64,000 nt of DNA from Arthrobacter sp. YN (GTDB lineage: Bacteria > Actinomycetota > Actinomycetes > Actinomycetales > Micrococcaceae), in contig NZ_CP022436.1 of assembly GCF_002224285.1 (NCBI RefSeq), positions 992,001-1,056,000 on the forward strand. Direction: 5' to 3'. Shown here in pieces: positions 43,206 through 58,229 of the stretch; position 1 is the first letter of the stretch, and every line of letters begins with the position of its first letter. Under the pieces are notes generated by a model. That model made no database searches and was not told where the DNA came from. It saw nothing but the letters and a program-made list of their open reading frames with translations. The position numbers were made by a program, and so were the translations under genes.

Positions 43206-44389
43206 CCGCCGCGGTCCCCGAAGCGACTACCGCGCGACCGCGGCTTAGTAAGTTGCCCTCCCTTACCGGGCTTCGGTTCTTCGCCGCGCTGCTGGTGTTT
43301 TTCTTCCACATCACCTTGTCCAACTCACCGATCCCGCCGAACGATCCCATTAATCCGTTCGCCGATACGGAGCTCGGGTCCACCTTGGAATGGCTGGTCA
43401 GCAAAGCAGGATACGTGGGCGTGTCGTTCTTCTTCGTTCTGAGCGGATTCCTTCTGGCTTGGGCATCCAAACCAGGCGAGCCGAAACGACAATTCTGGCG
43501 CCGCCGGCTATTGAAGATCTTCCCCAACCATCTGGTGATGTGGCTGCTGTCGATGGTCCTGTTCGCCGCCGCCATCAACCCGCCGCTGGGCTGGATCAGC
43601 AACCTCTTCCTGGTGAACTCGTTCATTCCGGATGCGGCCGTCTACGTCGCGGTGAACCCGCCCTCATGGACGCTGAACAGCGAACTGCTCTTCTACATGC
43701 TGTTCCCGCTGCTGATGGTTCCGATTAGAAAAATCCCTGGCAATCGCCTCTGGGTTTGGGCCTGGATCACGGTCGCTGCCATGATCGCAGTTCAACTGGT
43801 CACCACTTACCTGATCCCCGCGACCCCCGTCTCGGCCCTGACACCGATTTCCGAGGCACAGTTCTGGTTCGGGTACATCTTCCCGCCCGCCCGGCTGTTC
43901 GAATTCATTCTGGGCTCTATCCTGGCCCGAATCGTTCTCTCCGGGCGCTGGGTACCTTTGAAGATGTGGCACACCCTTGTTCTCTGCGTGGCAGGCTACG
44001 CAGCGGCCATGGTCGTCCCGTTTGTGTACTCCTTTAATGTGGCCACCATCGTTCCGGTCGCGGCGATCATCTGCACCGTCGCAACCCGCGACATCGCTGG
44101 CCACACAGGCTTCCTCGGTTCCAAACCCATGGTCTGGCTGGGAAACATCTCCTTCGGCTTCTACCTGTGCCAGGGAGTCGTGATCTTCTACGGCCGCATT
44201 CTGCTGGGCAACGAGGTGTACCCGACACCCGTCGCCTGGCTGGTGGTCGCCGGCTTCTTCGTGGCCACATTGTTGGGTGGGTGGGCCTTGTACGCCCTCG
44301 TGGAAAAGCCCGTCATGGACCGCTGGGCCCGCCCCAGGCCAAAACCGGTTCAGCCGGAACCGGCTCAGGCCGCTGTCACCGTGGGCTAG
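43202..44389 (+). CDS. Acyltransferase-3 family membrane protein
   Basis: A 395-residue OafA/NodX-type O-acyltransferase with about 10 membrane helices. Key motifs are SLTGLRFFAALLVFFFHI with the conserved catalytic-region His, GVSFFFVLSGFLLAW, and WTLNSELLFYMLFPLL. Such proteins transfer acetyl or acyl groups to sugars, antibiotics or polysaccharides at the membrane. It is the last gene of the rightward operon (ATGA overlap with the oxidase), 11 bases before a strong terminator. It probably decorates the cluster product. Confidence 0.9.
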   Translation: MTAAVPEATTARPRLSKLPSLTGLRFFAALLVFFFHITLSNSPIPPNDPINPFADTELGSTLEWLVSKAGYVGVSFFFVLSGFLLAWASKPGEPKRQFWRRRLLKIFPNHLVMWLLSMVLFAAAINPPLGWISNLFLVNSFIPDAAVYVAVNPPSWTLNSELLFYMLFPLLMVPIRKIPGNRLWVWAWITVAAMIAVQLVTTYLIPATPVSALTPISEAQFWFGYIFPPARLFEFILGSILARIVLSGRWVPLKMWHTLVLCVAGYAAAMVVPFVYSFNVATIVPVAAIICTVATRDIAGHTGFLGSKPMVWLGNISFGFYLCQGVVIFYGRILLGNEVYPTPVAWLVVAGFFVATLLGGWALYALVEKPVMDRWARPRPKPVQPEPAQAAVTVG

Positions 44390-44400
44390 GGAAAGAAGTA

Positions 44401-44437
44401 AAGAAGGCCCGATCCTGAATGGATCGGGCCTTCTTTA
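44401..44437 (+). terminator. Rho-independent terminator of the rightward operon
   Basis: A perfect 15-bp stem (AAGAAGGCCCGATCC, 44401-44415, with 44421-44435) has a TGAAT loop and ends in a TTCTTT tail. Confidence 0.92.
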
Positions 44438-44926
44438 AGCTGTCAGTACTGGGGGCTGACCTCCGAAACGCCTTTGGCGACTTCATGCAAGAACTGTCGA
44501 GGCAGCATTGGACGATGAGCGATTCCATCCAGTCACTTCGGGATTTCGCCGACGGTTCATCGACGCAGGAGGCCATGGTGGTCTGATCGCGGTCGTCCGC
44601 CCGGCAAGCCAGCACATGGCGGGTAATCCGTTCATTGCGCTGTTCAGGTTTCACAACCACCGGGCTTTGACGGCGCCCTCGAGGCTGCCCCGAAGGAGGG
44701 TGAAGGGGCGGTCTTGCTATCGTCACCGCCCAAGGAGGAACGAGGTTCCACAGCTCGCAGCTTGATGGCTCCGTCAACGTAGAACTCGTCGATCGAGGCG
44801 AAGATCTTGGACAGTTCGGCTCCTGCGCGATAGGCCTCATCAGGGGTTTCGCTGCGCCCCTCGGACCATGCCTCCTGATCCGTAGCGACCATGTCTGCCC
44901 AGCCATCCTGACATAGGGGACCACAC
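44438..44926. other. Non-coding or decayed stretch between clusters
   Basis: About 490 bases without a convincing gene apart from the weak ORF reported at 44644-44892. Overlapping open frames on both strands look like shadows. I see no rRNA, tRNA, IS end or CRISPR here. Confidence 0.5.
44644..44892 (-). CDS. Small hypothetical ORF, possibly a remnant
   Basis: An 82-residue frame from ATG 44892. The first ~50 residues have a natural composition (SETPDEAYRAGAELSKIF, SIDEFYVDGAIKLRAVEP), while the tail is Ser/Pro-rich and looks non-coding. No ribosome site or recognisable family. It could be the start of a decayed gene. Confidence 0.3.
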   Translation of the reverse strand: MVATDQEAWSEGRSETPDEAYRAGAELSKIFASIDEFYVDGAIKLRAVEPRSSLGGDDSKTAPSPSFGAASRAPSKPGGCET

Positions 44927-44967
44927 AAACTGCCCGCCGAGCTATTCGATAGAACGGCGGGCAGTTT
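44927..44967 (-). terminator. Terminator hairpin after the MmyB-type regulator
   Basis: A perfect 13-bp stem (AAACTGCCCGCCG, 44927-44939, with 44955-44967) lies 41 bases after the regulator stop. Read leftward it ends in CAGTTTGTGT. Confidence 0.75.
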
Positions 44968-45008
44968 GGACCCGAACCCTATATACGCGGGTTGTTTGAG
45001 TGCTGCCG

Positions 45009-45899
45009 CTACTTGGCTGGGACGTGTTGAGCTTCGCTGACCACTGCCGTGTCGCTGGACGTCAGCAGCTGCAGTGCTTCGGCCGCTGGAGTCCCAGGGT
45101 CAGCGGTGTACATGAGGATCCGGTGGCCGGATTCATCGGGCGGAGTTAGGACCTCGAAGTTCAGCTCAAGATCGCCCACCTCCGGGTGGTGCATGTACTT
45201 CAGCCCCGACATGCAGTTCTCTACCGGGTGCCGCGCCCATAGATTAGCGAACTCCTCGCTGTTCATGGTCAGCGCACCGACCAGCGAAGCGAGTTCCGGG
45301 TCGTCGGTGGAGCGTCCCGCGACCAGACGTAGCGAGGACACCGCGCGTGTGGCCTCCTCAAGCCATCGCGTGTACAGCTCACGGGTGTGACGGTCCAGGA
45401 ACAACAGCTTCGTCATGTTAGGCCGCGCCGAAGGCGTTTCCGGGGAAGCGAAATCCAGATGACCAGCAACAAGCCGATGACCGATCCGGTTCCAGGCCAG
45501 CACTTCGCTGCGGCGCCCCAACACGACGGCGGGTGTGTTGGACATTGACTGGATCAATCGCAGGGTACCCGGCCTTACCTTGTCGGGCTTAGTCAGCGTC
45601 CGCCGTTTGGTCGTGCCGGGCCGGGCAAGGTTGAACAGGTGCGCGCGCTCGTCCGTATTGAGGTTCAGGGCCCGGGCGATGGCATCGATGACCGCCTCTG
45701 AGGCATTGTTGCTGAGGCCCTGCTCCAGACGGGTGTAGTAGGTGTTGCTAACGCCGGCGAGCATGGCGAGCTCTTCCCGGCGTAGGCCCGGTACACGGCG
45801 GATGCCGTAGTTGAGAAGGCCGACGTCCTCTGGCTGTAAGGCAGCTCTTCGGACGCGAAGGAACTCCCCAAGTTCACTTAGATTACTCATGCGCCCCAT
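45009..45899 (-). CDS. XRE/MmyB-family transcriptional regulator
   Basis: A 296-residue regulator. An N-terminal XRE-type helix-turn-helix (GLRREELAMLAGVSNTYYTR, residues ~34-55) is followed by the MmyB-like ligand-binding region, with the usual NTPAVVLGRRSEVLAWN, LFLDRHTRELYTRWLEEA and the late PDESGHRILMYTADPGTPA. In Actinobacteria such proteins usually control a neighbouring short-chain dehydrogenase or exporter gene. It is divergent from the EmrB-type exporter at 46133. ATG 45899 is the start used; ATG 45890 is possible. The probable regulon is described with the shared 17-bp element. Confidence 0.9.
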   Translation of the reverse strand: MGRMSNLSELGEFLRVRRAALQPEDVGLLNYGIRRVPGLRREELAMLAGVSNTYYTRLEQGLSNNASEAVIDAIARALNLNTDERAHLFNLARPGTTKRRTLTKPDKVRPGTLRLIQSMSNTPAVVLGRRSEVLAWNRIGHRLVAGHLDFASPETPSARPNMTKLLFLDRHTRELYTRWLEEATRAVSSLRLVAGRSTDDPELASLVGALTMNSEEFANLWARHPVENCMSGLKYMHHPEVGDLELNFEVLTPPDESGHRILMYTADPGTPAAEALQLLTSSDTAVVSEAQHVPAK

Positions 45900-45930
45900 T
45901 CTGCCGGTCTTCTCCGGCGCTGTCCTGTCC

Positions 45931-45944
45931 CTGCCAGTGACACC
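45931..45944. promoter_or_regulatory. Partial match to the shared element upstream of the regulator
   Basis: CTGCCAGTGACACC resembles the ends of CTGCCTATCACTGACAG with a shorter centre. It lies 31 bases before the regulator start and could mediate autoregulation. Confidence 0.35.
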
Positions 45945-46021
45945 CTAAACGTCAAGACGCATTGGTACATGTGACAAGACAGCCGCACCGGAGCAGGGTA
46001 TGGGTGCTTTCCCGCCTGTCA

Positions 46022-46038
46022 CTGTCAGTGGTAGGCAG
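46022..46038 (+). promoter_or_regulatory. 17-bp element shared with the 36.9-kb promoter
   Basis: CTGTCAGTGGTAGGCAG lies 94 bases before the exporter ATG and is preceded by GTCACTGTCAGTG, a short palindrome (CACTGTCAGTG). It matches the minus strand of 36921-36937 at 16 of 17 positions. Confidence 0.65.
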
Positions 46039-46132
46039 GAGGGGGTGTGGTTGATCCCCGGACATTCCGTGACTGTGGAGTTGTGAAGATGCCGCCAACG
46101 GGCGGCCACCCCTCCAGAGAAGGATCACCGTC

Positions 46133-47605
46133 ATGACCACCCAACCGGATGTCACCACAGGACCCGGCGTCCCACCCTCGATCGAATCGCAACCGGCAAC
46201 TGCTCCCGCGGGACGCATGACGGGCCGGCAGCGGCTGGCCCTCAATGTCCTGCTCGCAGCGAGTTTTACCCTCGCTGTTGACTTCTCCATCCTCAACGTA
46301 GCCCTCCCGGCCATCGGCACCGATGTTGGCTTCAGCTTGGAGAACCTTCAGTGGATTGCGACGTCATTCGCACTGTGCGCAGCGGGCCTGACGCTGCTGT
46401 TCGGACGTGTCGCCGATATAGCCGGGCGCCGCAAGATGTTCATCATCGGCATGGCCCTCCTCGGCGCGGCGTCGCTTGCCGGCGGATTGGCTGCCGACCC
46501 GGCCTTGTTGCTTATTGCTCGCGTGGGACAAGGAGTCGCGACGGCCATTGTCGTTCCCGCTGCCCTGTCCCTGCTGCTGGCATCCTTCCCGGAAGGCCCG
46601 TTGCGCGATAAGGCACTGGGCCTCAATGGATCACTGATGGCCGCAGGCTTTACGACCGGCGCTATCCTCGGCGGACTCCTGACAGACCTGCTGAGCTGGC
46701 GGTGGGCGTTCTTCATCAACGTGCCTGTTGCCATCGCAGTACTGGTTATCGCTCCCATCGTCCTTGCCGAGAGCAAGCCCACCACGAAGTTGAAGCTGGA
46801 CGTTCCGGGTGCCGTCACCGTTACCCTCGGCCTTCTGGCACTTGTCTTCGGTTTGACGAACGCCGCCGAGCATTCCTGGACCAATCCGCTGACTCTGGGC
46901 TCCCTCGCGGCAGCCGTTGTGCTCTTTGTTGCCTTTGTGGCGGTCGAACGCCGGGCAAGCTCGCCGCTGGTACCGCTGGAGATCTTGAAGCGCTCCACCG
47001 TCGCCTGGGGCAACATCGCCGGCATCCTGGCATTCGTCACTGAAACGTCCCTGGTGTTCTTGCTGACGCTTTACCTGCAGCAGGTTCTCGGCTACACCCC
47101 GCTCGGTGCTGGATTGGCCTTCGCAGTCCTTGGTCTCGGCACAGTACTCGGTGGCGTCCTCGGACCCAAGGTGATCGGAAAGATCGGCAACAAGAAAGCC
47201 ATCGTCTACGGATTCATAGTCCAAGCCATTGCGACCGGCGCCCTCGTCCTACTCAGCGCAGACCCCGCATCCATCGGTCTGCTGCTGGTCGCCACTTTCA
47301 TTGGTGGTGTAGCCAACCTTGTCGTCATCGTCGGATTCATGGTCACCGCTACCTCCGGGCTGCCCGATGAAGAACAAGGCCTGGCCACAGGGCTGGCAAC
47401 CATGAGCCAGCAGATCGGCATCACCATGGGCATCCCCATCATGAGTGCCATCTTCACAGCCCAAATCCTCAGCATCGGGAACAACGAGGTCCCGGCCGTC
47501 CTCAGCGGTGTCACAACCGCCATCTGGGTCAACGCGGGCCTTTGCCTGCTCACCGCAGTGGTTGTGGGCCTGTTCCTGCGCAAGCCCGCGATGGCCGCCA
47601 ACTAA
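46133..47605 (+). CDS. MFS drug exporter, DHA2 (EmrB/QacA) family
   Basis: A 490-residue transporter with about 14 membrane helices. Motifs of the DHA2 family are DFSILNVALPAIGTDVGFS, LLFGRVADIAGRRKMF and GSLMAAGFTTGAILGGLL, where motif C lines the antiport path. ATG 46133 is preceded by AGAAGGA. It is divergent from the MmyB-type regulator and probably exports a toxic compound sensed by it. A hairpin follows the stop. Confidence 0.92.
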   Translation: MTTQPDVTTGPGVPPSIESQPATAPAGRMTGRQRLALNVLLAASFTLAVDFSILNVALPAIGTDVGFSLENLQWIATSFALCAAGLTLLFGRVADIAGRRKMFIIGMALLGAASLAGGLAADPALLLIARVGQGVATAIVVPAALSLLLASFPEGPLRDKALGLNGSLMAAGFTTGAILGGLLTDLLSWRWAFFINVPVAIAVLVIAPIVLAESKPTTKLKLDVPGAVTVTLGLLALVFGLTNAAEHSWTNPLTLGSLAAAVVLFVAFVAVERRASSPLVPLEILKRSTVAWGNIAGILAFVTETSLVFLLTLYLQQVLGYTPLGAGLAFAVLGLGTVLGGVLGPKVIGKIGNKKAIVYGFIVQAIATGALVLLSADPASIGLLLVATFIGGVANLVVIVGFMVTATSGLPDEEQGLATGLATMSQQIGITMGIPIMSAIFTAQILSIGNNEVPAVLSGVTTAIWVNAGLCLLTAVVVGLFLRKPAMAAN

Positions 47606-47638
47606 GCCCTACAGGCAGAAGCCCTGCACGAAGACTGC

Positions 47639-47670
47639 GGGGGTGGGGTCCTTTCAAGGACCCCACCCCC
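47639..47670 (+). terminator. Strong hairpin after the DHA2 exporter
   Basis: A perfect 15-bp stem (GGGGGTGGGGTCCTT, 47639-47653, with 47656-47670) has a minimal loop. There is no T-tract, but the position between two operons fits a terminator. Confidence 0.7.
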
Positions 47671-47740
47671 GGTCGTGGAGCAGGAGCATATGAAACACGG
47701 AGCAGAACAACGAGAAGTTCACCGATATTAGGAGACGACA

Positions 47741-48673
47741 TTGTTTCAAGGCAAGGCTGATTCCTTCCTGCAGGAACGGAAGGCATCCGTTCACCCGGAG
47801 GTTGAAGTCCTGGCCATCGGGGCGTGCTCCGGATCCGTAGGGGAACTGTGGCAGGGCCCAGCCTGGTCGGGCAGCGCAGACGAAGTCGCGTTGGTCACCC
47901 TGCACGGCCCCAACCAAAGCATCGCCTACGCGAGTAACGCTCCCGATGCGTCCGGAGACCTTGAGCGCGCCGCCGAAGACCACCTCCGCATCCAGGCCGA
48001 GCAGTTCTTCTATGAGGTTACGGCGGTGCCCAGCAAGGGAATTGGGTTGCGGTACTTGAGCGACATACCTCGCGGGAAGGGCATGGCGAGTTCCACCGCG
48101 GACATTGTTGCTGTGATCAGATGCTTGGCCAAGCTCCACGGGATGCCGCCGTCCGACGAATTGATCCGCGAAATTTTGCGGCGGATTGAGCGTTCCGACC
48201 CGATATTTCACAACTATCACTCGGTGTACTTCAGCGGCCTTCAACGGGAGTACCGACGGTTCGCGACTCGGATCGGGTTCTACGCCTATTGGAGCTTCGA
48301 AAATCAGGACACCGATACCAAACGCTTTGACCGGAGCCTGCTGTTGGACGCGTACAGCCTGTACCGAGAGGAGTACCGAGTCTCCCTGACCAATCTTATC
48401 GACGCCATGGACACCGGGAACGCTTCCGCTGTGGCGGCCGAATCGACAGTAAGTGCCCGGCTGGCTCAAAGCTATCTGCCCTCGGCGACGGTCGGGAACC
48501 TGCTGGAGAACTACCAGTCACTGGGGGCGTTGGGCGTCCTTCGTGGCCATACAGGAACTGTTGCCGGACTGCTCTTTAGCGAGCGTCCAAGCCCGGAGCT
48601 CGCGGTGTCAATCAAGAGAATATTCTCCCTGAACTCCATGGAACCTTACGAAGGAAACGTTGGACTATGCTGA
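47741..48673 (+). CDS. GHMP kinase, PduX-like (L-threonine kinase family)
   Basis: A 310-residue small-molecule kinase. The N-terminal block GACSGSVGELWQGP resembles the CGELxQG block of PduX, and the ATP-binding GHMP motif 2 is DIPRGKGMASSTADIVAV. The C-terminal substrate region (GHTGTVAGLLFS) is also PduX-like. PduX phosphorylates L-threonine for cobalamin synthesis; no cobalamin gene is near. I infer O-phosphothreonine (or a related amino acid phosphate) as the product, to be used by the PLP enzyme whose gene overlaps by 7 bases. The start is TTG 47741 with AGGAG 7 bases upstream. First gene of the ATP-grasp operon. Confidence 0.85.
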   Translation: MFQGKADSFLQERKASVHPEVEVLAIGACSGSVGELWQGPAWSGSADEVALVTLHGPNQSIAYASNAPDASGDLERAAEDHLRIQAEQFFYEVTAVPSKGIGLRYLSDIPRGKGMASSTADIVAVIRCLAKLHGMPPSDELIREILRRIERSDPIFHNYHSVYFSGLQREYRRFATRIGFYAYWSFENQDTDTKRFDRSLLLDAYSLYREEYRVSLTNLIDAMDTGNASAVAAESTVSARLAQSYLPSATVGNLLENYQSLGALGVLRGHTGTVAGLLFSERPSPELAVSIKRIFSLNSMEPYEGNVGLC

Positions 48674-49683
48674 CCCACCCCGCAGATTTCCTTGCAAAAC
48701 CATCGCTCCTTACGGTCCGGCCCGGCTTCCACATCTTGCGGTTCGAATCGATGAAGGTGGCTTCCGCCCTCACAACCGTTCGTAAGCTGCTGGCCGAGGG
48801 CCGTGTGGATAAGAACTCGATCCTGGTCGACAGTTCAAGCGGGATCTATGCCGTGGCCCTGGCCATGGCAGCGCATAAGTTTGGGCTTCGATGCAAGATT
48901 TTCGCTTCAACCACGGTCGATACGGTTACTCAGGCACAACTGAAGTCCCTCGGCGCAGACGTTGAAAGTGTGCCACCGTCGGCATCCTTGAAGCTCGATC
49001 AGGGCGAGCGGGTTCGGCGCGTGCAGGCCTATATCGCGGCCACTGACGATGCCTACTGGATGAGGCAATATCATGATCCTCTTCACTACGACGGGTATGC
49101 AGAGATTGCCGGGGGCCTGGAGCTTCCTGAACATCCGGAGGTTCTCCACTTGATCGGGAGTGTCGGCTCAGGAGCCTCAACAAAAGGTCTCTCACTTGGT
49201 CTTGAGCAACAGCACAGTGTCATCACGCACGGCATTCAACCGTTCGGATCTGTCACCTTCTCATCCGAACACGTCAACGATCCCGACATGATCATCGCCG
49301 GCATCGGCAGCGCAATTCACTTCGACAACGTGGACCGGGAGCTCTACCAGTCCATTGATTGGCTTAGTTTCGGGCTGGCGGCAACGGCAACTGCACGGAT
49401 GTACCAGCAGATAGGACTGTTCGCCGGCCTGTCTTCTGGCTGCGCCTACATGGTCGCCGACAAAATGATCTACCCGCATCTGAACGACGGCGAATCGTTG
49501 ATCATGATCGCACCCGATACGGGCCACAGGTACGCACAAGCCATTTTGCCGTATCTAACGAATCCAGAGATTCAATACGACGAACTGACGCCCCTGTCTG
49601 TGCGGCGCCGTGACGATTTGGAACTGCCGTGGAGCCGACTTGATCGGACCCAAGTGTCTATGAAGGATTGGAATGAATTCTAA
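48667..49683 (+). CDS. Cysteine-synthase-fold PLP-dependent enzyme
   Basis: A 338-residue fold-type II PLP enzyme. The Lys-containing segment is FHILRFESMKVASAL. The Asn-loop equivalent is VDSSSGIYAVALAMAAHKFG, the phosphate-binding loop is LIGSVGSGASTKG, and FAGLSSGCAYMVADK matches the late GISSG motif. Typical members replace the beta leaving group of O-acetyl- or O-phosphoserine. Next to a threonine-kinase-like gene it could replace phosphate on O-phosphothreonine to give a beta-methyl amino acid such as 2,3-diaminobutyrate or beta-methylcysteine. That product is inference. It overlaps both neighbours (7 and 11 bases). Confidence 0.87.
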   Translation: MLTHPADFLAKPSLLTVRPGFHILRFESMKVASALTTVRKLLAEGRVDKNSILVDSSSGIYAVALAMAAHKFGLRCKIFASTTVDTVTQAQLKSLGADVESVPPSASLKLDQGERVRRVQAYIAATDDAYWMRQYHDPLHYDGYAEIAGGLELPEHPEVLHLIGSVGSGASTKGLSLGLEQQHSVITHGIQPFGSVTFSSEHVNDPDMIIAGIGSAIHFDNVDRELYQSIDWLSFGLAATATARMYQQIGLFAGLSSGCAYMVADKMIYPHLNDGESLIMIAPDTGHRYAQAILPYLTNPEIQYDELTPLSVRRRDDLELPWSRLDRTQVSMKDWNEF

Positions 49684-50833
49684 AATTATCGTTGCCCTCG
49701 AGGCGATGACGGTCAACCTGGACCTCCTTGACGCTGCGGTCAGGCGGCGCGGACACCATCTCGTAGTACTCGCAGGGGAGCCATCCATGTACCTGCCTGA
49801 TGGTCAGGAGGTCGACCTGCGCCAATGCGATACCTCAAACGAAGCAGCAGTCCGGGCGACGATTGACGAGTTGAGCGGCGAACTGATCGGCTTGCTGAGC
49901 CCCACCGACACCTGGGGGATCCAGGCCGTCGCATTGTGCGAGGAACTCGGCCTGCCCCACTTGACCTCCTCAGCCAAGCTCGAAAAGCTTCGAGACAAGC
50001 AATGGGTCCGACGGACTACAGATACAGCCTTGGGCAGGAGTCACGACCGGTCACCGGAGTCCCCGCACATCCTGAAGCCACGGAAAGGGACCGGGTCTCA
50101 GAACATCGAGTTGTTCCCAAGTCTTGGTGCACTTCACGAGTTCATCGAGAACCAAGGACTCAACCTCGATGAGTGGGTGATCGAGCCATACTTCATGGGA
50201 CCAGTCTTCAGCGCTGAAACCTATACCCGCAATGGTGAAACTACCCTCCTCGGAGTAACCAATCGGATCATGTCGCCCGAACCTCTCTTCGTTGAACTGG
50301 TCAAGACGTTCCCGCACCTCCACGGAACACCCTGGGAAGCCGACGCTGGGGCCTGGGTCAGGGAGGTTCTCCGGAGCGTTGAATTCGAGGACGGGTTCGC
50401 ACATATCGAGTTCTGTGAAACCCGAAACGGGCTGGAGCTCATCGAGATCAACGCCCGGATGCCCGGCGCACTCATTGGCCCAGCCATTGAGCAGACAACA
50501 GGCATCGACATCTACGACATCCTGATCGCCGATGCCCTAGGCGAAGAACCAACCCCGATTATTCGAAACATACAAGGCGGCCATTCTCACGTCAGTGTCT
50601 ACGCGGAGAACGTCGGAACCCTCACCGCCATCGAGGGGGCAGAAAGCCTTAGCGATTTGCCCGGTGATGTCGGATGGCTGCCTGCAAAGGCCATTGGGGC
50701 ACGAATCACTCATGTGGGGGACTACAAGTCGAGGATCGGCAATATCTTTGCGACCGCGGTTGAACCGAGTCTCGCACAGGATTATGTGATGGCCGCCAGT
50801 CGTCTCCTTAAGGTCACGGTGTCCGGTGACTAG
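49673..50833 (+). CDS. ATP-grasp carboxylate-amine ligase (first)
   Basis: A 386-residue ATP-grasp protein. A preATP-grasp domain (residues 1-~90) is followed by the ATP-binding lid (PHILKPRKGTGSQNIELF, with the Lys and flexible Gly/Ser loop), WVIEPYFMGPVFSAETY, and the metal-binding end FCETRNGLELIEINARMPG (Glu and Asn ligands). This matches L-amino-acid ligases and carnosine-synthase-like enzymes that join amino acids through acyl phosphates. It overlaps the PLP gene and the MFS fusion gene (8 bases). Substrates are unknown. Confidence 0.9.
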   Translation: MNSKIIVALEAMTVNLDLLDAAVRRRGHHLVVLAGEPSMYLPDGQEVDLRQCDTSNEAAVRATIDELSGELIGLLSPTDTWGIQAVALCEELGLPHLTSSAKLEKLRDKQWVRRTTDTALGRSHDRSPESPHILKPRKGTGSQNIELFPSLGALHEFIENQGLNLDEWVIEPYFMGPVFSAETYTRNGETTLLGVTNRIMSPEPLFVELVKTFPHLHGTPWEADAGAWVREVLRSVEFEDGFAHIEFCETRNGLELIEINARMPGALIGPAIEQTTGIDIYDILIADALGEEPTPIIRNIQGGHSHVSVYAENVGTLTAIEGAESLSDLPGDVGWLPAKAIGARITHVGDYKSRIGNIFATAVEPSLAQDYVMAASRLLKVTVSGD

Positions 50834-53210
50834 CACGCTTCCATCTTCACCGGCCAAGATCCCGACATCGTCATGGGCGCTGCTGGTCTTGATCGTTGTT
50901 TCGGGCATCACAACCTTTATGTTCTTGCCGTTGCTCACACTGGAACTCGTTCAACGAGGGCTAGGTATTGCAAGTGTTGGAATTCTTGTCGGCTCCATGA
51001 CCGGCTCAGGTCAGATAGCTTCGGTCTTCCTGGGGTTCCTTGTAGCAAGGTTTGGCTCGAAAACCATGGCCCTGTGTGGACTGGTCATCAGGGCGGCAGG
51101 CTTGTCGGTGTTTCTGTTCCGTGAGGACTTCACCAGCTACCTTGTCGGGAGCATCGTTGCCGGCATCGGTTCCACCAGTGTTTCCCTTGGAATCAAGACC
51201 GAGCTGCTTGCTGTGGCTGGATCTCGAAAGCTGATTTCGCTTCGGTCAGCAGCAGTAAACTCCGGGGCGTTGCTGGGTCCGGCAATCGGTGCGGTTCTGT
51301 TTCAGCTAACAGGGTTCAATACCATCATTGCTGCATCTCTGATCAGCTACCTCATCATGGGCGTCGTGGTCGCTTTCCTGCGTTTCGAATCTTCCGGAGG
51401 TACGCTGCAAGGCAAAGGCAAACACTCAGAGCCCGGTCAAGACGGTCCGTTGTTCTCGGAGAAAACCCGGAAGCCCATCCTCGTGCTACTGACACTTGTA
51501 GCCGCCTACTGGTTCGCCTACTCGCAGTGGAACGTCCTCATGCCGCTGACAGCAAAGCAGGCATTCGGTACAGATCAAGCCTCCTCCTGGTTCTACATCG
51601 CCAACGCCGCTCTGATACTTGGTTTCCAGTACCTCCTGCTAGTGCATCTGCTGGGACGACTGAAGTCGGCACGGATTCTCCTTCTGGGCTTCGGGAGCCT
51701 GTTTGCCGGGTTCCTCGTACTGGCACTCGGCTGGACCGCCCCTGCGGTCATCGCCTACGTGGTGTTCTTCACGCTCGGAGAAACTTTGGTCAGCCCAACA
51801 CTTGATGAAACCGCCTCAAGGCTCTCCTTGGGACACAAAAGACTGGGGAAGCTGTTCGGTCTCATCGGGACTATCTCGGGTGCGGCTTCCGTCGCGGGCG
51901 GGGCCCTGACCGGTTGGATCCTGAGCGCTGCAGGAGCCCCCGGCCTTGCCAGCACGGTCGGTCTGCTCGCCGGCTCCATCGGCATATTGCTCTCAATACG
52001 AGGTCTCCGGAAGAAAGGACCGACCATGACAACGACTATCTACATTCCCTCCCCGCGGGGAGTGGTCCTGGAAGCTGCGCAAAAAATTGAAGGTCTCCAG
52101 CTCGTTCCAGTCGTTTCCGCCAAGGACGCGGGTGATGCGTACAGGGATATGAGGGTTCTCAAGGTCAGCGACCCGCTGGACGCCCTTGAGGTCGCCCGGG
52201 CCTTGCTCGATGAACCCGACGACGGCTCACGACGGACCTTCCTGGCTTTCGGAGACCAGTCCACCGAAGTAGCGAGCATGGTCAACGCTGCCCTCGGCTG
52301 GGGCATCGCGGGCTACCTTGACTTCCAGACCCTTGAGGCTTTCCGGAACAAGTCCAGGCTGCGCAAGGCACTGGGTAAAAACAACCCAATGAATCTGCCC
52401 TTCGCAGACGTCAGGGACGCGGAAGAAGTGATTCGTTTCGTCCGGATGATTGGGACGCAAGCCATTCTCAAACCGACCGATGGAAGCGGAAGCCGCAACA
52501 TTCTTACACTGTCGCCCTCCACAGTGGAGCAGGACTTATCCGAGCAGGACCACTCCTGGATTGAACGAGGCGGGATTGTCGAGGCTATGGCCATCGGGCC
52601 GGAGTTCTCAGTCGAAGTCCTCAGCTGGAAGGGGGAACACTCTGTACTGGGCACTACCCGAAAATTCACCAGCGGGGCGCCTCACTTCATTGAGACAGGA
52701 CATCAGTTCCCCGCGGACATCCCGGCGAAACTCAGGACAGCCCTGGAAAAAGCGACCAAGCAAGTGCTGGATGCTGCCGGACATCAAAGCGGTTTATCGC
52801 ACACAGAATTCATCGCAGATTCAAGCGGGGTCAAGCTCATTGAGTCCCATGGGCGTCCTGGTGGCGACAGGATTTCGGACCTGGTTGGCCTGGCCACGGG
52901 CCGGTCATCCTTCGACCTTTGGTTTGCAACGCTCTTGTCGGAGAGCCTCGCTTCCGTTCCCGAAACAACAGCCACCGCAGGCGTCGAATTTCTCGATCTA
53001 ACAGGGCTGACTGCAACGGATGACCAATGGATGTCGGCGATGCGCGAAGTACCGGGCGTAGTTGAAGCATCTGTGCTGCTGGATGAACCACATCGGGGGA
53101 GCATCGTGTCCTCAAGCAGCCGGCACAGTCTCGTCGTGTTCCGCAGCGATCCGGGAAATCACGACGAAATTCGCAACACCATTCGAGCCACCAATATGGA
53201 ACTTACGTAA
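50826..53210 (+). CDS. MFS exporter-ATP-grasp ligase fusion
   Basis: A 794-residue protein in one frame. Residues 1-~395 are a 12-helix MFS transporter (GILVGSMTGSGQIASVFLGF, FTLGETLVSPTLDETASRLS). From residue ~401 follows a second ATP-grasp ligase: AILKPTDGSGSRNILTL as ATP lid, IVEAMAIGPEFSVEVLSW, and SHTEFIADSSGVKLIESHGR with metal-binding Glu and His where Asn is usual, then a C-terminal domain as in amino-acid ligases. The start is GTG 50826. An internal ATG at 52026 has AAAGGA 6 bases upstream, so a free ligase may be made as well. A transporter fused to a ligase suggests coupling of synthesis and export. Confidence 0.9.
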   Translation: MTSTLPSSPAKIPTSSWALLVLIVVSGITTFMFLPLLTLELVQRGLGIASVGILVGSMTGSGQIASVFLGFLVARFGSKTMALCGLVIRAAGLSVFLFREDFTSYLVGSIVAGIGSTSVSLGIKTELLAVAGSRKLISLRSAAVNSGALLGPAIGAVLFQLTGFNTIIAASLISYLIMGVVVAFLRFESSGGTLQGKGKHSEPGQDGPLFSEKTRKPILVLLTLVAAYWFAYSQWNVLMPLTAKQAFGTDQASSWFYIANAALILGFQYLLLVHLLGRLKSARILLLGFGSLFAGFLVLALGWTAPAVIAYVVFFTLGETLVSPTLDETASRLSLGHKRLGKLFGLIGTISGAASVAGGALTGWILSAAGAPGLASTVGLLAGSIGILLSIRGLRKKGPTMTTTIYIPSPRGVVLEAAQKIEGLQLVPVVSAKDAGDAYRDMRVLKVSDPLDALEVARALLDEPDDGSRRTFLAFGDQSTEVASMVNAALGWGIAGYLDFQTLEAFRNKSRLRKALGKNNPMNLPFADVRDAEEVIRFVRMIGTQAILKPTDGSGSRNILTLSPSTVEQDLSEQDHSWIERGGIVEAMAIGPEFSVEVLSWKGEHSVLGTTRKFTSGAPHFIETGHQFPADIPAKLRTALEKATKQVLDAAGHQSGLSHTEFIADSSGVKLIESHGRPGGDRISDLVGLATGRSSFDLWFATLLSESLASVPETTATAGVEFLDLTGLTATDDQWMSAMREVPGVVEASVLLDEPHRGSIVSSSSRHSLVVFRSDPGNHDEIRNTIRATNMELT

Positions 53211-53218
53211 GGAACATC

Positions 53219-54210
53219 ATGAAGATCTTGGTTCTAACAATCCAGACCACTGAGTACAAGTTCGTCAACAACTTCCTCATACCTGAATCTCTGCACCGTC
53301 AAGGCCATGAGGTAGTCCTCGGAGACGTGGACACCTTGAGTTACCTCGAAGGTGAAATCCATTGCAAGCAAGCGACGTTCGATGGCGGTGCTGTCGGCGA
53401 ACGTCACGTTCTCATGGATCAGATGCGCTCCTGCGAAGAATTCGATCTCGTCTGGGTGCTCGACTACAGCCACCCGGATCGAGAGAAGGAATTCTTCCAG
53501 CTCCTGTGGCTGCTCGAGCGTCGCATACCGTTCGTCAACGATCCCAGTGGCCTGTTTTTTCTCAACAACAAGATCGGTATCGCGGCTCTCGATCTGCACG
53601 AGAACCTGCCGGAATCGTTTGTCTCGTGTGATGAGGATGTTCTTCGCCAAATCTGCGAATCGAAGGCAGGCTCGGCATGGGTGGTCAAGCCCCGAACTCC
53701 GGCTGCGGTGCCAACGTGTTCAAACTATCCGCCGACGATGCGAACTTCTCGGCGCTGCTGCAGTCAGCAACCGGCAATGCATACCAGAAATACGAAATGT
53801 TCACGCGAGAGGCATTTGGCCAGGCCGAAAAGTACGCCGTGCTCCAGGAGTTCCTGCCGCGACTTAAGGGAACAGAAAAGCGCGTCATGATTGCCGACGG
53901 CAAAGTCATCGGTGGTTTCAAGAAGACAGGCAAGGGAACCGAGTTCCGCGGAAACGCATCTACCGGAGGCGACATCGGTGCTCTCGAACTTGATGCTGAC
54001 GAATTGGCTCTGAGCGAGAAGATCGGCAACAAGCTGAAGGAGTTCGGCATCCGGTTCGTCGGTATTGACATGGCCTACCCGTACCTGGTCGAGCTCAACC
54101 TAGTGAACCCAGGTGGCATCAATTATCACAGGAAAGCCACAGGAGAAGACATCGCCGACATTCTGACCAAGACCGCAATCGAAGGCGCCATACTGGTTGG
54201 TTCCAAGTAG
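53219..54210 (+). pseudogene. Glutathione-synthetase-like ATP-grasp ligase (third), frameshifted
   Basis: An ATP-grasp protein of ~330 residues if intact, similar to GshB/RimK-type ligases. The first part (ILVLTIQTTEYKFVNNFLIP, FDLVWVLDYSHPDREKEFF, PFVNDPSGLFFLNNK, GSAWVVKP) is in one frame to ~53690. The rest (NSGCGANVFKL, YAVLQEFLPRLKGTEKRVMI, GKVIGGFKKTGKG, YLVELNLVNPGGINYHRK) is in another. The switch is at a C4 run (53691-53694); a fifth C would restore Lys-Pro-Pro-Asn-Ser. Without it the ATP lid and metal ligands are lost. It is a true mutation or a sequencing error. It starts 8 bases after the fusion gene, with AAGGAA upstream. Confidence 0.87.
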
Positions 54211-54418
54211 TCCTGGGGTCGACCGCCACCAGATTTCCGTGCACCTTGGTCCCGGGAACCTGCCCTGGATCCCCGCCGAATACTCCGCAACCGCGAACCA
54301 CTGGACCTACCACCCGGCATCTACAACCCACCGAGGACGGCGTAGGGAGGGCGTTTCCGAGTCCGGGTCCACGTGCACACTTAGGGCTCCTGCTGCCTGA
54401 CGGGATTTCGCTGTTCGG
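54211..54418. other. Boundary stretch after the ATP-grasp operon
   Basis: 208 bases with no credible gene or terminator. The short open frames here lack ribosome sites and any recognisable family. It marks the junction between the accessory cluster and the next conserved genes. Confidence 0.4.
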
Positions 54419-54913
54419 CTACTGCCGGACGCTGATCACCGGTGCGGTCTTCTGACGAAGTTGCATCAGGCCAGCGATAGTCAGCCCGGCAGTAAGCGCC
54501 AGGGCAGCCACCCAGAGCGTGAGCCCTGCGAGGTCGTGGATAGCCATTTGGGGGAGCCGTCGATCCGGCACGGCGATGACGCCGATGAAGGCTCCGACGA
54601 GTCCGAAGTAGCTGCCGGTCATAAAGCGTTGATGCGCGCGGATGTTACCGCGGCGGACGGTCACAAGGCCCAAAGTCAGGGTGCAGAACGTCAGCACGGA
54701 CAGGGCGTGGAGCCAGTTGAATCCGCCGTCGATGGTCCGGATACCGAAGGAGGTGAGGACCACGATGTACATGGCCACTGCCCAGATTCGGCCCAGGATC
54801 TTGTGCGCTGCGCTGCCTTTATTGCGGCGGAGCAGGTTCACGGCGCCGAAGATCAGGGCGTAGCCCGCTGCGATGGCATGCAAAGCGATGAGTAGGGTCC
54901 ACGTCGAAGGCAT
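54419..54913 (-). CDS. DUF2306-type membrane protein
   Basis: A 164-residue membrane protein with four to five hydrophobic segments. The pattern LHAIAAGYALIFGAVNLLRR, KGSAAHKILGRIWAVAMYIV and RGNIRAHQRFMTGSYFG, with several conserved His residues facing the membrane, fits the DUF2306 family (possibly haem-binding). It ends close to the previous cluster and is read towards it. Function unknown. Confidence 0.8.
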   Translation of the reverse strand: MPSTWTLLIALHAIAAGYALIFGAVNLLRRNKGSAAHKILGRIWAVAMYIVVLTSFGIRTIDGGFNWLHALSVLTFCTLTLGLVTVRRGNIRAHQRFMTGSYFGLVGAFIGVIAVPDRRLPQMAIHDLAGLTLWVAALALTAGLTIAGLMQLRQKTAPVISVRQ

Positions 54914-55078
54914 ACGGCCAGCCTAGCGAGTCGGACGGGGACGATCGGGCCGCGGTCGCACGGGCTGCCCTGCCCGTTTGCCGTGTTCCCGGCGACCCCG
55001 TCGCCCGGAGATTGAACAGCATGCGGAGGGCCGTGGACCTTCTTCCGAAACAATCCCATGGTCAGAGGTAACCACAAT

Positions 55079-55525
55079 CTAGCCGTGGATGCTGGCCGCG
55101 ACAGCATCCGCTTTGAAATACATGCGCATCAGGAACGTGACCAGGACGGCTGTGAAGCCAAGTCCGCTGAAGAAGATTACTGGCACGCTGTCGTCGTCCT
55201 TTGGCAGGATTGCGAAGAGAACCCACAAAACTGCTGTGCATGAGAGCAAAAGGACAGCTGTCCCTTTCAAGATGTTCACCGAGGCCTCGTGCGCCGCGAT
55301 CCAGGCCTCGTCGGAGGCCATGGTCGCCTTGGACCGGATGCCAAAGGTGGGATTCCTTCTGGATTGCCCAGCCTCAATCTGTGACGCCAACATTTTCAGG
55401 AGCCCGGCAACAACAAGGAAAGCGATGCTGAACATGGCCGTGCTGAATGCTGCCCCCAAGAAACTGCCCTCCGTTGTGGCGATACCTGCCCAGGGCTCAC
55501 GGTAACCAGCCGGAGTGGAGGGCAC
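55079..55525 (-). CDS. SdpI/YhfL-like membrane protein
   Basis: A 148-residue protein with three membrane segments. The loop RRNPTFGIRSKATMASDEAW followed by AAHEAS is the hallmark of SdpI-type proteins (N-x-x-x-GIR...S-x-E-x-W...H). In Bacillus SdpI gives immunity to the SdpC toxin and signals to a repressor; here there is no sdp operon, so the role is open. Confidence 0.8.
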   Translation of the reverse strand: MPSTPAGYREPWAGIATTEGSFLGAAFSTAMFSIAFLVVAGLLKMLASQIEAGQSRRNPTFGIRSKATMASDEAWIAAHEASVNILKGTAVLLLSCTAVLWVLFAILPKDDDSVPVIFFSGLGFTAVLVTFLMRMYFKADAVAASIHG

Positions 55526-55564
55526 AAGTCACAGACCTACGCCCCGTGCCCGCGGACATCTGGC

Positions 55565-56032
55565 TCACGGGCAGTTCAGCGTCCCTGTCAGGGGTGTGCC
55601 CGCCCACGCGTTGGTGGAGTTGGGCACCTTGTAGTAACCGCGGATCTGGTAGGTCCACGTGCCTGAGAGGTTGCTCGTGCTTTGGACCCCTGAGCTGTAG
55701 CTCTTTCCTGAGGCCTTGCTGAGGTCGCCCGTGAACCGTACAACGCCGTCGGGGTCTATGACTTTGAGCTCGTGGTAGTTCGCGTAGGCGACGGCTGGGA
55801 AACTGCTGACGCTGATTTTGGCTTGGCCAAACCAGAGGAATGAATCGCAGGACTTCGTCACGGTTACCGTGTTGGCTGCCGGCGCCGGGATCTTTGCCGC
55901 ACTGACGGCCATCACACCTGATGCGGTGTCGTTGAACTTGGCGTGGGCCGGTGAAATGTGGACGCCCATCAGCAGGAGCATGGCGGCCAGGATGGTGGCC
56001 GGTACTTGCCAGATGATGCCTTTGCCATGCAT
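55565..56032 (-). CDS. Secreted hypothetical protein near the SipW-TasA module
   Basis: A 155-residue protein with a typical signal peptide (residues 1-~31, ending HISPAHA), then FNDTASGVM. The mature part is rich in beta-prone Ser/Thr/Tyr residues and has two Cys (TKSCDSFLW and the C-terminal LNCP) that could form a disulfide. No known domain was recognised. It lies 91 bases downstream of the HPt-like gene on the same strand and may be a surface or matrix protein. Confidence 0.72.
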   Translation of the reverse strand: MHGKGIIWQVPATILAAMLLLMGVHISPAHAKFNDTASGVMAVSAAKIPAPAANTVTVTKSCDSFLWFGQAKISVSSFPAVAYANYHELKVIDPDGVVRFTGDLSKASGKSYSSGVQSTSNLSGTWTYQIRGYYKVPNSTNAWAGTPLTGTLNCP

Positions 56033-56123
56033 GTGCGTGATGCCGTTCCGGTAGTGCGAATGATGTGTTTCCAGTGTGCCGAACGGGCCTCAGGAAACAC
56101 CTCGGTGAACACTCAAGGTCCGC

Positions 56124-56531
56124 TCAAGACCGAAAGAAACCCCTGTGCCGACTGAGCGATGTATGCGCGGCCCTGATGAGGTCGGACCGTGAAGCTAGAC
56201 AGCGGTCTGCGGTCTGCCTGAGCGCGGGCAGCGCATGGGCGGCGTCGTCGAAGTGGTTTTCCCGGATCATTGATTCGATGGCCCGGCATTGGTGCTCCGT
56301 TTCCATGGCTCCCACCATGGACGAGCTGATCTTCAGGCTAAGAACAGCGGTGGTGGTCTCCGTGGCGTCATGCTCGTCCACAGCGTGGACGATTCGTTCG
56401 ACGCGCTGCGGAAGCATCGCAAGGTATTTGGCGAGGAAACGCAGTGCCGGTTCGGGGCTTCCCAGTTCCTCGGCGAGGGATTGGAGCCTGCCCAGGTCCA
56501 GTTCACCGCCTGGATTACCTGATGGCTTCAT
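56124..56531 (-). CDS. HPt-like protein lacking the phosphoryl histidine
   Basis: A 135-residue helical protein. Residues ~10-95 follow the HPt pattern: LDLGRLQSLAEELGSPEPAL, FLAKYLAMLPQRVERIVHAV, then VLSLKISSSMVGAMETEHQC where HPt proteins have AHSLKGSSxxxGA. The phosphorylatable His is Leu64 and the conserved Gly is Ile, so it cannot relay phosphate in the usual way. It overlaps sipW by 17 bases, which ties it to the SipW-TasA secretion module, perhaps as a binding or scaffold protein. Confidence 0.75.
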   Translation of the reverse strand: MKPSGNPGGELDLGRLQSLAEELGSPEPALRFLAKYLAMLPQRVERIVHAVDEHDATETTTAVLSLKISSSMVGAMETEHQCRAIESMIRENHFDDAAHALPALRQTADRCLASRSDLIRAAHTSLSRHRGFFRS

Positions 56532-57240
56532 CGCGGCCTCCGGCCGTTTCCCCGGGTGTGGTCTTGGCGGGGTCCTTGGTCCAGATGGAGGCGAGCATTC
56601 CGATGACCAGGATGGTGGGTGCGCCGTACATCAAGATGTTCATCACGATGGGTTCGCGGAGGGCACGGATGGCGTTGCCGACTCCCGGGATGGTGGCGAC
56701 GTGCTTGTCCACGGTTGTGCCTTGAAGGGTGGCGATCCAGGGGTCGATGCCGTTGTTGGCGTCGCCTTTGGTTTGGACTGCGACGCCGCCGTCGGCGGTG
56801 GCGGTGATCTCGGTGATCCGGTGGGTTTCCACCCGCTGGTCTTCGACCGGGATGTGGTAAGTGATGATGTCGCCGACCTTGACGTCGGTGATGGGGGTGG
56901 GGACGGTGACGACGACGTCGCCCGGGTTGATCATAGGGGCCATGGATCCGGTGAGCATGGTGGAGGTCTGGTAGCCCAGGACGCGCGGGCCGATCGCGAG
57001 GAACAGGAACACCAACGCAGCGAGGACCAGCATGCCCACGCCGATACCCCTCGCCACTTTGCCGGCAATCCGGCGGAAGGTGCCGGTAGTGCTTGCAATG
57101 GAGGTGGCCGCTGCGGGCTGCTTCACAGCGGCGGTCTCAAGGACGGAAGGAACGACGGCGGCGGGCTGGTTCCCGTTCTCTGCTGCGGCAGAACGCCGGC
57201 CGCGAACTGCGGGAGTGGTGATGGTGCTCAGTGCGCTCAT
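56515..57240 (-). CDS. sipW: Signal peptidase I, SipW/ER type
   Basis: A 241-residue membrane protease. A disordered N-terminus (1-~55) and a membrane helix (VGMLVLAALVFLFLAIG) precede the catalytic Ser99 in TGSMAPMINPGDVVV. The general base is His140 in ETHRITEI instead of Lys, as in SipW and eukaryotic signal peptidases. A second helix lies near the C-terminus. It processes the TasA/CalY-type protein encoded upstream. ATG 57240 has AAAGGA upstream; earlier in-frame starts extend through the ribosome site. Confidence 0.9.
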   Translation of the reverse strand: MSALSTITTPAVRGRRSAAAENGNQPAAVVPSVLETAAVKQPAAATSIASTTGTFRRIAGKVARGIGVGMLVLAALVFLFLAIGPRVLGYQTSTMLTGSMAPMINPGDVVVTVPTPITDVKVGDIITYHIPVEDQRVETHRITEITATADGGVAVQTKGDANNGIDPWIATLQGTTVDKHVATIPGVGNAIRALREPIVMNILMYGAPTILVIGMLASIWTKDPAKTTPGETAGGRDEAIR

Positions 57241-57417
57241 GCCTGGCGTTCCTTTCGTGGTGTTCGACGTGCTTTCAGTTTGTCTTCCCCCGCTCAAGAG
57301 AGCGTGCGGGTAGGCCTCAAGACTTGATCAGGAAATGGCCAGGAACCGGCCGGAAGGGCATACCGGCCGGCCCCTGGGGTCTATCGGACTGACCGTTGAG
57401 GGTCAGCGGGGAGCGGG

Positions 57418-58026
57418 TTACTTGGTGGTTTCGGTGCGTTGGGTGCCGGTGAAGGAGAAGGCGATGGTGGAGGTGGCGCCTTGGAAGTCGTTGTTCGCGG
57501 TGGTGGGGAATGCGGTGGTGACTTTGAGGTTGTCGGTCTTGGCCGAGGTCACGGAGGTGAGGTTGGTGAGGGCCTTGTTGGCGGTGATGACCGGGGCGGA
57601 GGCCAGGACGGTGGTCTTGGTTCCGGTGCAGTTGTAGGGGGCTGCGGTGCCGGTCCAGGCCACGGAGCAGTTTTCGATGGTCAGCTGCAGGCCGTTGGTG
57701 GCGTCCGTGGTGAGCAGGGACGCGGTGGCCCCGGCGGAGGTGGTGAGGGTGACGTTGTTCAGGTCCGAGTTGCCGGTGTTGGCCAGGGTGACGAGCTTTT
57801 CGACCTTGTCTCCGGGGAGCAGTCCTGCGATGGGGACGTTGAGGGTGTTGGCCGGGCCGGGGGCGCCCAGGGCGATGGTGACCGTGCCTGCGGTGACAGC
57901 CTGCGACGCGGAGGTCGACGAGGTGAACGCACCGTAGGTTCCCATGCCGGCGACGGCGGCTGCGGTGCCGACCAGTGCGACGGAGGCGAGGATTTTGCCG
58001 GAGGTGGTCTTGAGGCTGATGGCCAT
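57418..58026 (-). CDS. TasA/CalY-like SipW-dependent secreted protein
   Basis: A 202-residue camelysin/TasA-type protein. The signal segment LASVALVGTAAAVAGMGTYGAFTSS matches the SipW-dependent pattern (a hydrophobic stretch ending GTYGAFTSS in place of a plain AxA site). The mature part is Thr/Ala/Asn-rich and beta-prone, with two Cys (IENCSVAW, YNCTGTK). TasA-like proteins form matrix fibres. It is the first gene of the module, followed by hairpins in the 177-base gap before sipW that may lower downstream expression. ATG 58026 has AAAGGA 10 bases upstream. Confidence 0.88.
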   Translation of the reverse strand: MAISLKTTSGKILASVALVGTAAAVAGMGTYGAFTSSTSASQAVTAGTVTIALGAPGPANTLNVPIAGLLPGDKVEKLVTLANTGNSDLNNVTLTTSAGATASLLTTDATNGLQLTIENCSVAWTGTAAPYNCTGTKTTVLASAPVITANKALTNLTSVTSAKTDNLKVTTAFPTTANNDFQGATSTIAFSFTGTQRTETTK

Positions 58027-58229
58027 CTGAGTATGGTCCTTTCGGGAGGCCACCGCGGGTCCGGCCGGCCGTTTCTTCCAGCCTCTCTGGCTGACAAGAA
58101 CTACTGTGCCGGGGCTGGATCAAGAACAAATCCTGCAAACCTGCAACACTTCCTCAGGAAAACCTCAAGACTCACCCATGGCCCAAACCCGGGTCCCGGA
58201 CTGTCCTCCCGGACCGCCTGGAAGAGTTG

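Follow-up and report, generated by a model that had tools for sequence, protein, structure and literature searches.

A kinase, PLP enzyme and ATP-grasp ligase cluster in Arthrobacter sp. YN that looks like an export-only branch of a probable metallophore module

We analyzed a gene cluster on the + strand at positions 47741-54210 of a 64,000-nucleotide stretch (the window) of the 5.06 Mb single-contig genome of Arthrobacter sp. YN. The cluster encodes a putative small-molecule kinase (K), a pyridoxal phosphate-dependent enzyme (PLP), three ATP-grasp ligase modules (AG1, AG2 and AG3) and an exporter of the major facilitator superfamily (MFS), which is fused to AG2. Gene identities were taken from Pfam and NCBIfam profile matches, and the genes lie where an earlier note on this DNA had placed them, all on one strand:

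47741-48673, + strand: K, 310 residues, TTG start with AGGAG 6 bases ahead; GHMP_kinases_N at 41.5 bits (cut-off 22.3)
48667-49683, + strand: PLP, 338 residues, SbnA/cysteine-synthase fold; PALP at 94.9 bits
49673-50833, + strand: AG1, 386 residues; ATP-grasp_4 at 39.9 bits and LAL_C2 at 42.4 bits
50826-53210, + strand: MFS-AG2 fusion, 794 residues; MFS_1 at 89.8 bits (residues 19-358) and ATP-grasp_4 at 38.4 bits (residues 546-681)
53219-53692 (end approximate), + strand: first part of AG3, the N-terminal part of a glutathione-synthetase-like ligase
53693-54210 (start approximate), + strand: second part of AG3, in another frame; GSH-S_ATP at 83.8 bits

Neighboring genes overlap by 7 (K and PLP), 11 (PLP and AG1) and 8 bases (AG1 and MFS-AG2), and AG3 starts 8 bases past the MFS-AG2 gene. 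The earlier note had described five overlapping or closely spaced genes with three ATP-grasp modules, one of them joined to an exporter. Modules and spacing are as described, but a frame break in AG3 had been missed: in the window strain AG3 occupies two frames that switch near position 53690, and no single open frame spans it. Intact AG3 of 330 residues is found in the genomes G624 and G019 and as protein P0190. Because AG3 is split in the window and lies in one frame in G624, the break could be read as the first lesion of a cluster that is dying in this strain. We consider this very unlikely, as every other module has an open frame and purifying selection acts on each module, both parts of AG3 included. 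The ratios of nonsynonymous to synonymous substitution (dN/dS) against G624 are 0.12 for K, 0.059 for PLP, 0.11 for AG1, 0.084 for MFS, 0.172 for AG2, and 0.042 and 0.078 for the first and second parts of AG3. One break of this kind may have arisen recently or may reflect an error in the assembly. We found no nonribosomal peptide synthetase, no precursor of a ribosomally synthesized and post-translationally modified peptide and no cobalamin gene in the cluster or in the nine flanking open reading frames that were scanned.

By its profile match, K is a small-molecule kinase of the GHMP superfamily, and its sequence does not distinguish serine from threonine as a substrate. It is 94% identical to protein P0001 and 66% identical to the copy in G019, and carries the motif GKGMASSTADI. 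PduX/BluE-type enzymes are L-threonine kinases; K resembles them in its GHMP fold and in the GMASSTAD motif but differs in that it matches no curated model of this type and has no cobalamin gene among the scanned frames. No threonine-kinase model is found among its NCBIfam matches, the best of which is mevalonate kinase (7.6e-6, far below the cut-off). The earlier label 'PduX-like' is therefore loose, and we rejected a cobalamin-linked threonine kinase for lack of a cobalamin gene in the scanned frames. The source name 'L-threonine kinase' is attached to 6 of 68 protein matches of K. One protein so named, P0017, shares the GMASSTAD motif and likewise has no PduX model among its NCBIfam matches. 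A further match, P0006 (188 residues), joins the N terminus of K to the C terminus of AG1 and represents a deletion allele or a misassembly.

The cysteine-synthase fold proposed for PLP is borne out by its PALP match and by its closest relative in the PDB by sequence, SbnA (2e-20). SbnA acts in staphyloferrin B biosynthesis together with SbnB and converts O-phospho-L-serine (L-OPS) and L-glutamate to N-(1-amino-1-carboxyl-2-ethyl)-glutamic acid (ACEGA); Arg132, Tyr152 and Ser185 are named as key for L-OPS binding (PMC12414870). Comparison of the two sequences revealed that K30 of PLP aligns with K47, the Schiff-base lysine position of SbnA, R115 with Arg132, Y135 with Tyr152 and G167 with Ser185. 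All 86 of the 86 aligned PLP rows retain K30, R115 and Y135 and have glycine at the position of Ser185. An AlphaFold2 model of PLP has a mean predicted local distance difference test score (pLDDT) of 85.5 and a predicted template modeling score (pTM) of 0.87. The conserved residues support a phosphorylated substrate for PLP as far as sequence comparison can indicate, and the position of K directly upstream fits a phospho-amino acid. The earlier proposal of a probable hydroxyl-activating kinase followed by a β-replacing PLP enzyme, three ligases and an exporter gains support from this predicted kinship with SbnA and from the retained R115 and Y135. PLP differs from SbnA in the serine-to-glycine replacement, in the adjoining kinase gene and in its PLP_SbnA_fam score (123.8 bits), which does not reach the family cut-off of 349.95. 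No SbnB-type partner or ornithine-cyclodeaminase-type domain occurs among the scanned frames, and by its score and the lack of SbnB in these frames the cluster does not fit the SbnA/SbnB pathway to 2,3-diaminopropionate.

AG1 resembles ATP-grasp amino-acid ligases (dapdiamide DdaF, bacilysin BacD and the LAL enzymes) in its ATP-grasp_4 and LAL_C2 domains, but neither the DdaF nor the BacD model matches it at E ≤ 0.001; its best match is the ATP-grasp part of PRK02186, below the cut-off. It is 36% identical to the ligase of a siderophore-type locus in Streptomyces (L020), and thus at least the AG1 step is possibly shared with that locus. AG2 has no LAL_C2 match and carries E-S-H at the positions where AG1 has E-I-N. 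AG3 shares the GSH-S_ATP domain with the glutathione synthetase GshB but differs in that its relatives sit in K-PLP clusters of two phyla. Its second part scores 92.5 of 272 bits against the NCBIfam glutathione synthase model, a value obtained from half of a split protein. The window shares the MFS-AG2 fusion with G624; in G019, G205 and Sphingomonas sp. Leaf242 the two modules have separate genes that overlap. AG2 and AG3 are additions of the window-type branch when set against the wider family of K-PLP loci described below.

A kinase profile detected at least 450 relatives of K in named genomes, and the best 80 were used to study gene neighborhoods. Our set of 87 neighborhoods comprises these loci without L038 (which lies on the same contig as L015), to which L014, L015 and six plasmid loci were added; L016 and L017 were treated separately. 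K and PLP are both present in 83 of the 87 neighborhoods, nearly all of which had been retrieved by likeness to one or the other, and 4 of 87 have no PLP. The 83 loci with both genes contain ATP-grasp ligases (78 loci), MFS transporters (71), methyltransferases (42), GshB-like ligases (3) and an argininosuccinate lyase (1). When we searched them by tblastn with a small seed set of metal-uptake proteins, at least one marker was found in 67 of 83: FecCD in 36, ferric reductase in 34, Peripla_BP_2-type proteins in 34, DUF364 in 26, TonB receptors in 23 and FhuF in 9. Sixteen genomes of 6.1-9.3 Mb have 6-18 FecCD matches each, and against this background the 36 loci (of 83) with FecCD within ∼20 kb far exceed chance expectation.

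Pfam annotation of individual loci gives the same picture. The Streptomyces locus L020 combines FhuF_C, Ferric_reduct, K, an AG1-type ligase, MFS, a methyltransferase, Peripla_BP_2 and FecCD, the Lysobacter locus L027 contains TonB receptors, and in the Massilia locus L033 a ligase is fused to DUF364 ('putative heavy-metal chelation'). A Rhizobium gallicum plasmid encodes K, PLP and an ATP-grasp/argininosuccinate-lyase fusion, which would point to aspartate as the nucleophile of the PLP enzyme. Two loci from the window's own family, L016 and L017, have FecCD, a periplasmic binding protein, DUF364, MFS, K and PLP together. In one actinobacterial family, PLP is found at E ≤ 1e-60 in 36 of 100 genomes, and in 8 of 8 loci widened from these it adjoins FecCD and Peripla_BP_2; five of the eight have DUF364, the kinase was detected in four, and three have a ligase and a methyltransferase and no detected kinase. 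Taken together, the K-PLP pair is probably a metallophore module. The earlier note had missed this large family, most of whose members lie in metal-uptake loci.

The earlier note had let K phosphorylate threonine and PLP turn the product into a β-methyl amino acid (2,3-diaminobutyrate, β-methylcysteine or an N-substituted form), from which the ligases would build a peptide. The motif shared with P0017 is in line with this, and glycine at the Ser185 position of SbnA could leave room for a methyl group. Phosphoserine is already supplied by primary metabolism, and a dedicated kinase is therefore more needed for threonine than for serine. Yet the curated models matched by K do not separate serine from threonine kinases, and the kinase is equally present in metallophore-marked loci, where serine would do. 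There is also no argininosuccinate-lyase match near the cluster, and only the one among the 83 loci. Phosphothreonine is a possible intermediate, and we regard this route as a whole as unlikely. More likely, the enzymes follow the chemistry of metallophore aminopolycarboxylates and do not yield free 2,3-diaminobutyrate.

The same six functions occur in the same order in five loci: the window, G624, G019 and G205 (Micrococcaceae) and Sphingomonas sp. Leaf242. The G624 locus (L126, 7217-13686) belongs to a region with 92.8% nucleotide identity to window positions 45009-54215, the G019 locus lies at L014 9893-16354 and the G205 locus on L015. A K search of 295 family genomes, which did not include G624, gave 10 genomes with a match at E ≤ 0.001; of the five K-positive genomes that we characterized, Arthrobacter sp. 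YN itself, G019 and G205 have the full set, and G233 and G118 have the metallophore type. Of 296 genomes from the Sphingomonas order, a single one has an AG3 match at E ≤ 1e-60. The six-function cluster is hence rare and sporadic. In Sphingomonas sp. Leaf242 it is located on a contig of 34,129 bases and is split across the contig ends: one end carries K, PLP and the first portion of AG1, and the opposite end carries the remainder of AG1 together with MFS, AG2 and AG3. The two ends share 102 identical bases, as in a small circular contig, and the contig also encodes a MobA/MobL relaxase. The G+C fraction of the window is 0.547-0.584 across 48000-53999 versus 0.596-0.659 in flanking 1-kb intervals (42000-47999 and 54000-57999). 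The lowered G+C content and the relaxase point to horizontal movement of the cluster. A tree was built from 80 PLP rows after removal of stretches in which the PLP match was short or split. In it, the enzyme of Leaf242 (L094) falls among TonB-type metallophore enzymes and apart from the window, so that, judged by this placement, the six-gene set may have been assembled more than once. In G648, which like G624 belongs to the genus of the window strain, the flanking genes are arranged otherwise, and the contig stops about where the cluster would begin.

Distant relatives of the gene set were also seen on plasmids. Plasmid pNBBC01-3 of Pantoea agglomerans, typed as conjugative, carries a distant K-PLP-ATP-grasp-GshB-like-MFS set (L098, 9878-17296), in which K and PLP are ∼27% identical to those of the window and a leucyl-aminopeptidase-like gene and a methyltransferase gene lie alongside. 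On a Mesorhizobium huakuii plasmid (L101, 5015-8331), a kinase and a cysteine-synthase-like gene adjoin a threonine-synthase gene near quorum-sensing genes, and kinase-PLP annotations of a similar kind are present on several other Mesorhizobium plasmids.

We scanned for Zur-like boxes, allowing at most three mismatches to a consensus. Such boxes are present in 9 of 9 loci that have PLP and DUF364 and no ligase (L016, L017, L118, L120-L123 and the plasmid loci L099 and L102). These loci contain 12 boxes in ∼167 kb versus 4 in 3.35 Mb of block-shuffled sequence, in a post hoc test for which the group was picked after a first scan of all 83 loci. The boxes lie near transporter genes and either overlap the predicted start of an adjacent gene or are found within ∼125 bases of it, and the kinase was detected in eight of the nine loci. 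No box was found in the ligase-bearing FecCD loci L116, L117 and L119 or in the six-gene stretches L014, L015, L094 and L125, and L126 has a single match with three mismatches at 13876, downstream of the cluster. By their gene content and boxes, the PLP-DUF364 loci look like Zur-controlled, mostly kinase-primed zincophore operons. Control by Fur was rejected, as its boxes are only in slight excess (best 3-4 mismatches in 3 of 83 loci versus none in shuffles). A perfect DmdR1 box occurs in L090 at 1314, far from the L090 kinase.

We propose, at a probability of roughly 0.45, that the window cluster is a six-function biosynthesis-export operon in which a K-PLP aminopolycarboxylate core receives amides from the ligases and leaves the cell through the MFS module, likely as a metal-binding small peptide. 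In a first step K would phosphorylate free serine or threonine on the side-chain hydroxyl, as its fold and its partner enzyme suggest. PLP would then eliminate the phosphate and add an amine, probably the α-amine of aspartate or another acidic amino acid, to give an aminopolycarboxylate of the N-(2-amino-2-carboxyethyl)-amino-acid type. AG1, AG2 and AG3 may form up to three amide bonds on this core. With AG3 broken, the window strain would form no more than two of these amides, barring an error in the assembly. The MFS module, in the window fused to AG2, would finally export the product. The chemistry would have been taken over from the K-PLP metallophore module, which is widespread among actinobacteria and proteobacteria, and given this origin the most likely product is a small peptide that binds metal and is secreted without a co-encoded re-uptake system. 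The window type thus looks like an export-only, three-ligase branch of the K-PLP family.

Several observations weigh against this proposal. No metal-uptake marker was found with our seeds at E ≤ 1e-4 in the window, L014, L015, L126, L094 or L125, the six stretches that make up the five six-function loci. The PLP tree places the window enzyme together with those of L014, L015 and Streptomyces humi L030 (96/69, not firm), and none of these loci has uptake genes. Among the K-PLP loci, 16 of 83 have no marker at all (some are cut by contig ends), and the pair can accordingly serve other ends; with the kinase detected in only four of the eight widened loci, the PLP enzyme can evidently act in its absence too. 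The 64-kb window has no Zur-like box with three or fewer mismatches, and in the 83 loci overall such boxes are only slightly above expectation (11 versus 4 in shuffled sequence). Iron-box control by DmdR1 was likewise rejected, as there is no enrichment upstream of K in the 83 loci (6-7 mismatches in 8 of 83 versus 5-7 in 13 of 83 shuffles). The window genome has 14 FecCD matches, the nearest ∼424 kb from the cluster, and no DUF364 genome-wide; with FecCD importers elsewhere in the genome, the missing uptake genes in cis are no proof of missing uptake.

The absence of uptake genes near all five loci would be expected if the K-PLP amino acid were an antimetabolite, hidden in a short ligase-built peptide and exported as a weapon by a dapdiamide-like logic, with the exporter providing self-protection. 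The sporadic occurrence of the cluster (the full set in 3 of 295 family genomes, AG3 in one of the 296 Sphingomonas-order genomes), the copy on the relaxase-bearing contig of 34,129 bases and the distant set beside a leucyl-aminopeptidase-like gene on the Pantoea agglomerans plasmid are in keeping with such a role. We nevertheless consider an antimetabolite peptide somewhat unlikely: AG1 has no DdaF match at E ≤ 0.001 and is 36% identical to a siderophore-locus ligase, and no target or resistance gene was recognized among the scanned frames.

Returning to the metal-binding peptide, one named class that we compared is EDDS/EDHA, the aminopolycarboxylic-acid metallophores of antiSMASH. Likeness lies in the cysteine-synthase-like PLP enzyme and, for the wider K-PLP family, in the metal-uptake genes. 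As described in the accessible part of the source, EDDS/EDHA clusters contain ornithine cyclodeaminase and diaminopimelate decarboxylase genes (PMC13206832). Neither domain is found by Pfam in the window cluster or its nine flanking frames, and we rejected membership in this class on the mismatch with the gene content described there. We found no published description of a kinase-PLP-ATP-grasp cluster, which is weak evidence of absence, as subscription literature lay mostly beyond the search. If our proposal is right, it would connect a family of gene pairs for an amino-acid kinase and a PLP enzyme with metallophore chemistry, and ATP-grasp ligases would have been added to a metallophore module to yield an export-only peptide. 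One could go further and see in the product a new class of exported chelating peptides that withhold zinc or iron from neighbors and do not feed the producer, a mobile, export-only metal-starvation weapon derived from a widespread, apparently unnamed kinase-primed zincophore/siderophore module; we hold this extension to be quite unlikely. The association of PLP with FecCD (8 of 8 loci; PLP in 36 of 100 genomes) and the Zur boxes (9 of 9 loci) predict a kinase-primed zincophore family, perhaps the larger result.

Downstream of the cluster, the window encodes an SdpI/YfhL-family membrane protein (37.3 bits; 55079-55525, - strand) at a distance of <1 kb. A camelysin-type (Peptidase_M73) protein (41.9 bits) follows at 57418-58053 on the - strand, and an open reading frame of 260 residues at 56515-57297, which has no Pfam match and which we take to be SipW signal peptidase-like, adjoins its gene. 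A long frame on the + strand at 57439-58962 matches the nicotinamide mononucleotide transporter PnuC in its C-terminal part (190.6 bits).

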